Notes under the pieces: generated by a model | The model's database searches: none | What the model was told of the DNA's origin: nothing | What the model saw: only the letters and a program-made list of their open reading frames with translations | Program-made: the position numbers and the translations under genes | NCBI GenBank assembly: GCA_015521115.1 | Contig: WAOT01000001.1 | Coordinates: 62,001-126,000 of the forward strand | DNA length: 64,000 bases | Origin: Desulfurococcales archaeon | GTDB taxonomy: Archaea > Thermoproteota > Thermoprotei_A > Sulfolobales > Acidilobaceae | Reading direction: 5' to 3' | Shown here: piece after piece, positions 52,314-55,970 of the stretch | Layout of the letters: each line of letters starts with the position of its first letter | How positions within the stretch are numbered: the first letter of the stretch is position 1

Positions 52314-52634
52314 ATGGTGGTCGGTGTGGTGCTTCAGAGAGAGCTAAAGGGTAAGCGGGTAATACTGTATCCTGCATACTTCGATTCACGACTTAGTCGT
52401 AGTCAAGGTCGAAGGGTTCCTAGGGAGCTAGCTGTTAAGGCCCCTTCAGCTGAGGAGGTGGCCAGGGCAGCGAGAGAGGCTGGGTACGACGCTTTCGTTG
52501 AGGATGGTGTAAGATACCCTAGGGTGTGGTGGCTCTCTGAGGGAAGAGTCGTTGTCGAGAAGAAAGGTAAAAGCAAGACTAAAATAATAAGAGAAATCGC
52601 TGAAATAATGGTTCGACGAAGGTCGAAGGGGTGA
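52314..52634 (+). CDS. srp19: SRP19 subunit of the signal recognition particle
   Basis: The 106-aa RNA-binding protein matches archaeal SRP19: ILYPAYFDSRLSRSQGRRVPRE, PSAEEVARAAREAGYDAFVE, RYPRVWW and a basic tail. It binds SRP RNA helices 6 and 8 before SRP54. No SRP RNA is visible in the window. The gene follows tRNA-Ile and precedes gar1. Confidence 0.95.
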   Translation: MVVGVVLQRELKGKRVILYPAYFDSRLSRSQGRRVPRELAVKAPSAEEVARAAREAGYDAFVEDGVRYPRVWWLSEGRVVVEKKGKSKTKIIREIAEIMVRRRSKG

Positions 52635-52752
52635 CCCGCAAGTATTTTCCTCTTTCGCCCCCGAATCCCCGGGAGTTCCCTTATTTGGAAGAAACGAAAA
52701 TCCCAATATTACCCTGGCGACCTCCCCCGGGATACTTTCCCGGTGTGCGTGC

Positions 52753-53127
52753 GTGAGAAAGAGGGTAATGCTCGGCCAGGTTCATGCCGTGGTCGGTACT
52801 GGACACGTGGTGGTTAAGCTTAACAATCCCAGTATGAGGGTTAGGATGGGATCCAAAGTCGTAAAGGACGGCGGCGAAATGGTAGGCAAGCTGGTCGACC
52901 TAATAGGAAACATAGAGTCGCCATACGCTGTGATCAAGGTAAAGGGGGAGGTCGCTGTTAACCCTGGAGAAACTCTATTCATATTAATTGAAAGAAGGAG
53001 GAAACCTAAGAGGAAAACGAGGGGAGGTGGAGGACGTGTCAAACCCAAAGGGGAGAAGAAAAAGAAGGGCCGACATAGAGGCGGAGTCCCCAGACGGGGA
53101 GGTGGGAAACGGCAACGGGGAGGTTAA
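52753..53127 (+). CDS. gar1: H/ACA RNP component Gar1
   Basis: GTG 52753 gives RKRVMLGQVHAVVGTGHVVVK, aligned with known archaeal Gar1 starts; ATG 52768 is possible. The 124-aa protein has a beta-barrel core (VGKLVDLIGNIESPYAVIKV, GETLFILIERR) and a Gly/Arg/Lys-rich tail as in eukaryotic GAR domains. It joins Cbf5, Nop10 and L7Ae to guide pseudouridylation. Its last 92 nt overlap the TFB gene in another frame; gar1-tfb pairing is common in archaea. Confidence 0.92.
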   Translation: MRKRVMLGQVHAVVGTGHVVVKLNNPSMRVRMGSKVVKDGGEMVGKLVDLIGNIESPYAVIKVKGEVAVNPGETLFILIERRRKPKRKTRGGGGRVKPKGEKKKKGRHRGGVPRRGGGKRQRGG

Positions 53128-54142
53128 TGTAACCGGTTTTCTCGATGAGCTCGATTTCCCGGACGCTTTTAACACCCCATACGGTGTTTCCTGGCACGGA
53201 TACGACCCCTTCCAATTGCCTCGGGACGAGGACGAACACCTAACGGATAACCTTGCCGATGGTAAGGAGTGGCGAAACTTCTCAGACGGAAGAAAGGGGG
53301 GTGTTAACAGGGCGAACATCCCCCCTCCAACCCACAACATCCTACACCTGAACGAGATAACATACCAGAAAAAGCCTAGGAGGTACAGGAAAGTAGACAG
53401 CGTCATGTACAGCAAGCTCGGGAAGAACGAGAGGAAGCTCAAGTGGGCAATCGATATGACCAAGCACGTCCTGGCAAGGCTTGAACTAGGGAGCCACAGG
53501 GGGGTGACGAACACCGCGTACCACCTAGTATATTCGTACATAGAGCACAAACAGAAGAAAGGGAGGAAGATCTCAAATAAGGAGATAATGGCACTAGTCA
53601 CAGCAGCAGTCCTGGAGGCTATAAGGCTAGAAAACGTCCCTATACCTAGAAGGTTAGTGGTAGATACTGTACTAGGCCTCGACTTCCACACATCTCCTCC
53701 CGATGCTGAGATGCTTATGAGGAGGACGAGGACAGTCCTTGAAAACATGTTCGCCTTCGGGATCATGAGGCGCGTCCTAGAAACCCATAGGGAGTACATG
53801 GGCGGACAACACCACATGCTTAAGAGGACACTCATGTTCATCCGCTCGCTCGTGTCAAAACTAGACCTGCCACCAGAGGACAAGAAGGCCGTTGAGAAAG
53901 GGGCTATGATGCTAGTGGAGAAGAGCGTGAAAAACGGTAAAAGCCTCTCAGGCAAATACCCTGAGGCTATAGCTGCAGCGAGCATCTACATAGTTGCTAG
54001 ACTCCTTAGCTTCGAGATCAACCAGAAAGACATCGCCAAGCTAGCTATGATAAGCGAAACCAATGTGAGGAAAGCCTTTAGATTCCTCGTGGAGGATCAG
54101 GCGATTGTTGTGCCACTAACACCCGTAAACCCCGTTGCCTAA
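53036..54142 (+). CDS. tfb: TFB (TFIIB) paralogue lacking the zinc ribbon
   Basis: GTG 53036 follows GGGGAGGTGGAGGAC, a strong ribosome site. The 368-aa protein has a B-reader-like segment (GKEWRNFSDGRK, then RANIPPPTHN) and two cyclin folds (NERKLKWAIDMTKHVLARL; KYPEAIAAASIYIVARLL with a helix-turn-helix TNVRKAFRFL). The N-terminal 70 residues contain no cysteine and are acidic and Gly/Asn-rich where canonical TFB carries a CxxC zinc ribbon. The first cyclin repeat is divergent. This may be an alternative TFB; TFE-beta is the next gene. Confidence 0.85.
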   Translation: MSNPKGRRKRRADIEAESPDGEVGNGNGEVNVTGFLDELDFPDAFNTPYGVSWHGYDPFQLPRDEDEHLTDNLADGKEWRNFSDGRKGGVNRANIPPPTHNILHLNEITYQKKPRRYRKVDSVMYSKLGKNERKLKWAIDMTKHVLARLELGSHRGVTNTAYHLVYSYIEHKQKKGRKISNKEIMALVTAAVLEAIRLENVPIPRRLVVDTVLGLDFHTSPPDAEMLMRRTRTVLENMFAFGIMRRVLETHREYMGGQHHMLKRTLMFIRSLVSKLDLPPEDKKAVEKGAMMLVEKSVKNGKSLSGKYPEAIAAASIYIVARLLSFEINQKDIAKLAMISETNVRKAFRFLVEDQAIVVPLTPVNPVA

Positions 54143-54396
54143 TAGTCCCGGGGGGATCTCTACCACATGTTAGGCCTTAATCTCAATAATCCCCATGTAT
54201 ACCTTGTTTCCTAGATTAATCAATTATTCAATAAAAGGTCTCCCATCCCCCCAGTTTCCCACCGGCTTAACTTTAACCCTGGATAGCTAAACTTCTTAAC
54301 GCATATATCCTCTAAATCCTCATATCATGTAATTATGGGTTTCGACTCCCCATACCATACTCTAACATGCCGACTGGACGACGAAGAGGTAGGTGA

Positions 54397-54804
54397 ATGC
54401 TGGTGGCGCATCCAAACTTGAGCAGTTTAGAGAAGAAAGCCTTAGAGCTGATAAAAAGGAAGAAGGGGATACTTCAGAGTGAGCTATGGAAGACCCTCAA
54501 GCTCGACAGCAGAGAGGGGTCTAGGCTCGTACTGCGTCTTCAACGTAAAGGCCTAATACGTAGGGAGCAGGTTTCCGTTAATGGCCGTAGAACCTATAAG
54601 CTTTATCCAGTAGAGCTCAGGCCCCAGGACAAGCAACTCCTAGTAGATATCGGATACGCCCTGATCGTCCCCTGCACTACATGCCCCTATTTTCAAGCGT
54701 GTGGGAACACACCACCACTTGAGCCGACCTCGTGTCCTATCCTGGATCGGTGGCTTGACTATATGGCGAAGAAGAGAGAGGCTGGGAGGAACTCTAAAGG
54801 CTAG
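54397..54804 (+). CDS. Transcription factor TFE-beta (RPC34/39-like)
   Basis: The 135-aa protein has an N-terminal winged helix (EKKALELIKRKKGILQSELWKTL, LVLRLQRKGLIRRE) and a C-terminal cluster of four cysteines, CTTCPYFQAC then TSCP, expected to hold a cubane 4Fe-4S cluster. This is the crenarchaeal TFE-beta, partner of TFE-alpha in promoter opening. Its closeness to an unusual TFB is striking. It overlaps the convergent trm1 by 4 bp. Confidence 0.88.
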   Translation: MLVAHPNLSSLEKKALELIKRKKGILQSELWKTLKLDSREGSRLVLRLQRKGLIRREQVSVNGRRTYKLYPVELRPQDKQLLVDIGYALIVPCTTCPYFQACGNTPPLEPTSCPILDRWLDYMAKKREAGRNSKG

Positions 54805-55970
54805 CGCCACCACCCTCTTATAAGGTCAGCTACAACCTGGAAGGGAGCATCCGTCCTTATACCCGCAGGGTCGAAGTGTGTCCTAGCCGCTTTATAGCCC
54901 CTGTCCTCAAGCTCTTGGACTAGCCCTCTGATCGGGGGCAGGTTTGTTTTCAGCTTTGAAGCTATCGTGTCAAGCCTATAGTATATGCATGAACTGCAGA
55001 CCTGTGCTTCACGGTAAATGTCTGAGAGTAGCTTGATTATTCTCCTATAGGTTGGCAGATACTTGTATCTTTCCACGAGGAGGAGGAGCTTCTCAAGGTA
55101 ATCCTTATCGAACAGGCCTCCAACCCAGAGCGGGCCGATTTTTACCCCATTAGGACAGGCTTCCCCGTCTTTCACAAACGATTTCCCTATAGCAGGACAG
55201 TATGTGACCGTGCCGACGTGCTCTCTCAGCATTGCGTCAGCCTTCTTAGCGCCTCTCTCGACAAGGAGGTATACGCGGTAGTAGTGGTCTGCGTAGTATG
55301 CTAGTAACGGTCTAACAGATTTATCGAGAGACGCTGCAACCCTCGCTAGATACCCTAGCAGGATTCTCACTCCGACCTCCTTAGACTCTGGCACCTTGAC
55401 AGCTTCGACCCAGTACTTCCTTCTGGCCGCCTGGGGCTTGGAGGCCTCAAGGACTGCTAGATCTGTTGCTGTAAAAGCTGCTAGCCCCTTATGACCTGTC
55501 GCCTTTAGGGCCTGCTGGGAGTAGGGGGCTGGGGAGCCGAAGGGGTCTACGTCTATGAAGAGGAGGGGTTCCTTCCTTCTCAGCTCTGTAAGAAGGGAGA
55601 TGGCATCCCTGCAATGCGCAACTACTCTGTCTTTGAGCCCGTTGAGGATAATGTTTTCTTGAATAACCCTGCAGGCAAGGGGGTCTATGTCGTTAGCGTG
55701 AACGGTCTCCACATGGCTTGTCTCGAGCGAGTACCTGATCGCCCTAACACCAGTACCGCTGAGCGCGTCAACAAGGTGTATGGGCTTGTGAGGGGCATAG
55801 TATGCGGTGTACGCTTCCAGAGCTAGTACACTCAGATCCCTATTGAAGGTCATGCGCGGGTTATAGAATACCGGTAGCCACGCTGGTTCGATCCCGTGGG
55901 GTGCCCTAGCTGCCTCCGGATCTGCTATCATTAGAAGAGCTTTCCCCTCCCTCAGCACCGCATACCTCAA
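54801..55970 (-). CDS. trm1: tRNA (guanine26-N2)-dimethyltransferase Trm1
   Basis: The 389-aa enzyme dimethylates G26 of tRNA using SAM. It begins EGKALLMIADPEAARA and continues PVFYNPRMTFNRDLSVLAL, DALSGTGVRAIRY (SAM site), HANDIDPLAC and FIDVDPFGSPAPY. A CSSC pair lies in the C-terminal domain near residue 313. The first 65 nt overlap the end of the THEP1 gene in another frame. Confidence 0.96.
   Translation of the reverse strand: MRYAVLREGKALLMIADPEAARAPHGIEPAWLPVFYNPRMTFNRDLSVLALEAYTAYYAPHKPIHLVDALSGTGVRAIRYSLETSHVETVHANDIDPLACRVIQENIILNGLKDRVVAHCRDAISLLTELRRKEPLLFIDVDPFGSPAPYSQQALKATGHKGLAAFTATDLAVLEASKPQAARRKYWVEAVKVPESKEVGVRILLGYLARVAASLDKSVRPLLAYYADHYYRVYLLVERGAKKADAMLREHVGTVTYCPAIGKSFVKDGEACPNGVKIGPLWVGGLFDKDYLEKLLLLVERYKYLPTYRRIIKLLSDIYREAQVCSSCIYYRLDTIASKLKTNLPPIRGLVQELEDRGYKAARTHFDPAGIRTDAPFQVVADLIRGWWR

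Follow-up and report, generated by a model that had tools for sequence, protein, structure and literature searches.

What can a TFB do when its zinc ribbon, the part of TFB/TFIIB that is taught as docking RNA polymerase, has lost every cysteine, and is such a protein the main initiation factor of its genome or an accessory one? The question is raised by a locus in the window, by which we mean the whole 64,000-nucleotide stretch of Desulfurococcales archaeon contig WAOT01000001.1 that was analysed. In window coordinates (52314-55970), the features are as follows.

52314..52634, + strand: srp19 (Pfam SRP19)
52753..53127, + strand: gar1, an H/ACA RNP protein gene and marker of the TFB2 locus (Pfam Gar1 28 bits, slightly under the cut-off; synteny)
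53036..54142, + strand: tfb2, a cysteine-free TFB paralogue of 368 aa (open reading frame; Pfam TFIIB 62 bits; tree)
53072..53263, + strand: tfb2 residues 13-76, an acidic segment at the place of the zinc ribbon (composition, AF2, profile scores)
53264..53425, + strand: tfb2 residues 77-130, an EWRNF motif and a B-reader/B-linker-like basic segment (9.0 bits; alignment)
53423..54139, + strand: two cyclin (TFIIB) repeats (Pfam, AF2 model, Foldseek)
54053..54088, + strand: recognition helix of cyclin repeat 2, SETNVRKAFRFL, canonically TEVTVRNRYKE (TFB2 helix comparison)
54397..54804, + strand: TFE-beta, the RPC34 homologue (B-block_TFIIIC, MarR and Rpc34 matches)
54801..55970, - strand: trm1, tRNA guanine-26 dimethyltransferase (Pfam TRM 311 bits; synteny)

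The tfb2 reading frame is uninterrupted from a GTG at 53036 through the stop at 54142; an alternative TTG start at 52988, 16 codons upstream, would yield a protein of 384 aa. Its 5' end overlaps gar1 by ~90 bp in a different frame (53036-53127). The overlapped part of gar1 encodes a basic, RGG-like tail, and the overlap recurs in the genus. TFE-beta consists of a winged helix followed by a C-terminal four-cysteine motif, with the cysteines kept. The initial annotation placed it directly downstream of tfb2; it does lie downstream on the same strand, but across a gap of 254 bp, in which a sigma-70/terminator scan, ill-suited to archaea, gave no match. The convergent neighbour trm1 is conserved across TFB2 loci.

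The description of the product as a TFB with two cyclin folds and a B-reader-like segment was borne out. Pfam PF00382 (TFIIB) matched it in two stretches (62 bits), and the EWR/B-reader part, with KEWRNF at residues 77-82, scored 9.0 bits, a value reached by 0.3% of shuffles. In the AF2 model, pLDDT exceeded 90 across most of the cyclin repeats, and Foldseek matched the model to Pyrococcus TFB 1d3u_B (E 5.8e-7, TM 0.76 of target). The protein does contain no cysteine (0 in 368 aa), and residues 13-76 carry 17 D/E versus 1 K/R. Pfam zinc-ribbon models did not match the protein, and the N-terminus scored -0.7 bits against a ribbon profile, a value equalled or exceeded by 17% of shuffles (4.5% with sister rows). 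The structure prediction that had been proposed for the N-terminus was run: pLDDT was below 50 over nearly all of residues 13-76, with no strand predicted ahead of residue 78, whereas the model of a same-genus relative (G037) had three short strands at its cysteine-free ribbon (pLDDT ~50), both models being built on 24 sequences and weak in the N-termini.

The gar1 neighbourhood had been taken to indicate the position of the main tfb gene. It turned out to mark a second factor, TFB2, throughout the order, to which Sulfolobus and Aeropyrum belong, with TFB1 located elsewhere. A search for a second TFB in the source genome (G000; 1.73 Mb, 99.9% complete, 59 contigs), suggested in the initial annotation, recovered a canonical TFB1 of 309 aa on contig C7 (L002:841-1770), with a standard EWR motif, cyclin repeats scoring 143 bits and a two-cysteine ribbon, which rules out the window gene as the sole TFB. 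The two proteins share the EWR motif, the B-reader region and two cyclin repeats, but they are ~21% identical, and TFB1 has two ribbon cysteines and the helix TEVTVRNRYKE and is far more conserved.

TFBs were gathered from 48 family and 121 order genomes (overlapping sets), and those adjacent to gar1 were all of the second kind. In the core-domain phylogeny of 98 sequences, one branch parted 59 gar1-locus TFBs from 39 TFB1s (SH-aLRT 100); one of the 59 (G035), whose contig starts inside the gene, was placed by TFE-beta and trm1. The window protein lies in the TFB2 group, within a five-member group of its genus (support 96), and the TFB1 of the same genome groups with its genus. In Sulfolobus acidocaldarius, TFB2 and TFE-beta have consecutive tags (saci_1341 and saci_1342; PMC6335949), and the TFB2/TFE-beta cluster of S. 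solfataricus is immediately preceded by a gar1 gene missing from the annotation (PMC2770514). Like the window gene, Sulfolobus TFB2 (saci_1341 / SSO0946) is a full-length second TFB that neighbours TFE-beta and has gar1 close by. Because of the tree split, the gar1 neighbourhood and these Sulfolobus positions, the window gene is identified as the TFB2 orthologue, an accessory TFB alongside an ordinary TFB1. A third, partial TFB-like match was seen in another family, f2 (G048:C7:6522-7055, G049:C98:7206-7730).

Within the genus, TFB2 identity was 30-35%, versus 75-79% for TFB1 and 57-70% for TFE-beta, and TFB2 was the fastest-diverging gene of the locus, which also fits relaxed constraint. An initial contig scan with the window protein as query returned no relative, and no TFB2 closer than 36% to that of the window species was found.

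Ribbon cysteines numbered two in 39/39 TFB1s; therefore, the order's main factor also lacks a full four-cysteine zinc site. The TFB1 ribbon pattern throughout the order is CPPDK...C.ETGE (L002 and 38 other TFB1 loci). Among TFB2s, four ribbon cysteines were found in 21 sequences, three in 3, two in 26 and none in 7, with some counts hand-corrected for stray cysteines beyond the ribbon motif and two rows outside the count, one truncated where its contig stops and the other carrying an unusual motif. Zero was attained at least two times on the tree, in the window genus and in family f2. The suggestion that the ligands were lost in the lineage held: besides the window species, G036, G037 and G038 are cysteine-free, and the G035 sequence is truncated at the edge of its contig. 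Family f2 (G048-G050; L120, L119, L133) underwent a separate complete loss, and its segment, e.g., LIYDYERGEIIDPETGLVIEE, retains the ribbon pattern without cysteine. An Asp stands where one cysteine would be.

The TFB2s of G037 and G038 are 93% identical, and their cysteine-free ribbons showed a dN of 0 (0/79 sites) at a dS of 0.92 (12/23; p=1e-9 against equal rates). The core had a dN/dS of 0.019, and the N-terminal extension before the ribbon had a dN/dS of 0.58, for which dS may be depressed because part of the extension overlaps gar1. As judged from these substitutions, the cysteine-free ribbon of this pair is under strong purifying selection. The claim that an acidic stretch replaced the ribbon thus applies to the window species but not to its sisters, where a cysteine-free, ribbon-shaped segment is kept and constrained. 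Based on the cysteine counts, the selection in G037/G038, the AF2 models and the profile scores, we infer that the genus lost the metal site, that the ribbon persists under selection in some species and that it decayed further in the window species. It is this mode of TFB2 ribbon decay that is new here; no report of a cysteine-free TFB ribbon was found in the open-access literature.

The helix that recognises BRE also departs from the standard. In the window protein (SETNVRKAFRFL) the Arg is kept, Val is replaced by Thr and Asn by Lys. All 34 TFB2s of the window family have S/T/A for this Val and Lys for the Asn after the conserved Arg, while the Val is retained in every one of the 39 TFB1s and, outside the family, in 23 of 25 TFB2s. 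The family-wide shift is from TEVTVRNRYKE to a KESNVRKxYRFL type. We take the changed Val position to be that of human TFIIB Val283, a BRE contact in TFIIB-BRE structures. At the level of sequence, the helix change supports, but does not prove, an altered promoter choice or a separate promoter class. The TFB2 of a Sulfolobaceae-like genome (G122), which falls within the gar1-linked TFB2 group, has four ribbon cysteines and a canonical EVTIRNRYKE helix, in contrast to the window protein, which has neither. Sulfolobus TFB3 (SSO0280) also departs from the standard TFB architecture, but in reverse: it keeps the zinc ribbon and has lost the B-finger and parts of the core (PMC2246294).

Our favoured explanation, which we consider reasonably probable, is that the window gene encodes a specialised alternative TFB, accessory to TFB1, whose ribbon would carry no zinc and, in the window species, is heavily eroded. 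The cyclin folds of TFB2 would bind TBP-promoter DNA, and the changed helix would direct it to a different subset of promoters. It would contact RNA polymerase through the B-reader/linker and the core, the ribbon contributing little or no docking, and TFE-alpha/beta may help to stabilise the weaker TFB2 complexes; TFE-alpha is present in the genome. The alternative TFB/TFE-beta pair proposed in the initial annotation accords with a published hypothesis, as a 2009 study described a TFB paralogue that co-localises with TFE-beta and suggested that the two form a functional pair (PMC2770514), but the pairing is independent of cysteine loss, most TFB2s keeping two to four ribbon cysteines. Less probably, TFB2 of this genus could initiate at a promoter class of its own without a zinc ribbon, with polymerase held by the B-reader/core and TFE-alpha/beta. 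If true, TFB function without ribbon docking would have a natural example, resembling RPC34-dependent recruitment of RNA polymerase III.

The main rival, which we regard as rather doubtful, is that TFB2 of this genus is a promoter-bound competitor, which would bind TBP and DNA without recruiting polymerase and so repress, at its targets, the transcription that TFB1 drives. In its favour, TFB docks polymerase through the ribbon (PMC7289017, PMC2246294), which is unrecognisable in the window protein, and the DNA-binding core is well preserved. However, the EWR/B-reader part, required only within the polymerase complex, is still recognisable, and the absence of amino acid changes in the sisters' cysteine-free ribbon at such a high dS favours a docking function that persists in those species.

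It appears unlikely that a TFB2 lacking its ribbon relies on a further protein, such as TFE-beta, to bring in polymerase in trans, by analogy with RPC34 and the TFIIB-like factor in the RNA polymerase III system. The conserved TFB2/TFE-beta neighbourhood would agree with this, trans recruitment has been suggested for crenarchaeal TFB paralogues (PMC2770514), and Sulfolobus TFB3 works in trans with TFB1 (PMC7289017). The neighbourhood, however, is present whatever the number of cysteines, the two genes lie 254 bp apart here, and several family members with intact ribbons (Acidilobus-like) had no TFE-beta match in the 1.5 kb examined. TFIIIB70/Brf1 with RPC34 also combines a TFIIB relative with an RPC34 homologue, a functional analogy proposed in PMC2770514. 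Unlike TFIIIB70/Brf1, the window TFB2 has no Brf-specific C-terminal extension, ending 16 residues past the last model helix (H341-352), and its interaction with TFE-beta is putative.

As for a ribbon supplied in trans, as the initial annotation had envisaged, the best TFIIB-like ribbon found elsewhere in the genome, known factors aside, is the four-cysteine ribbon of a 185-aa protein (L006:1447-2001; G000:C31:45512-46066). This candidate was rejected because relatives that retain an intact TFB2 ribbon have the protein too, and its distribution does not track cysteine loss, which further argues against recruitment in trans. The protein is of TFB3-like size, and it has another region without a Pfam match. 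Relatives are scattered in the order, with any match in 29/117 genomes, some of the matches being TFB2 itself.

There is very little likelihood that tfb2 in the window species is decaying to a pseudogene or a free-running gene. The very rapid divergence within the genus and the erosion of the ribbon would be expected of such a gene, but the reading frame is intact, the invariant core residues are retained in an alignment of 24 family members, the core is modelled with high confidence and its dN/dS is very low between the sister species. Finally, a normal CxxC ribbon hidden by an assembly error or frameshift, conceivable for a genome in 59 contigs, is refuted, as the three forward frames over 52740-53420 contain no CxxC (the sole one lies in a reverse frame and is unrelated) and cysteine is likewise absent from all three relatives in the genus whose N-terminus is complete.

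Sulfolobus TFB2 is reported to be cell-cycle-dependent (G1/S) and reduced after UV (PMC6335949, PMC2246294), Sulfolobus being the only case in which such cell-cycle dependence is known (PMC6335949, PMC7617429), and it may be linked to replication genes, as others have suggested (PMC2246294, PMC6335949, PMC7617429). An accessory TFB that occurs with four, two or no zinc ligands offers natural variants for testing to what extent the ribbon is required, and here selection still acts on a metal-free ribbon in some species, whereas in another the ribbon has eroded. The change in the BRE-recognition helix makes the old question of crenarchaeal TFB2-specific promoters testable.
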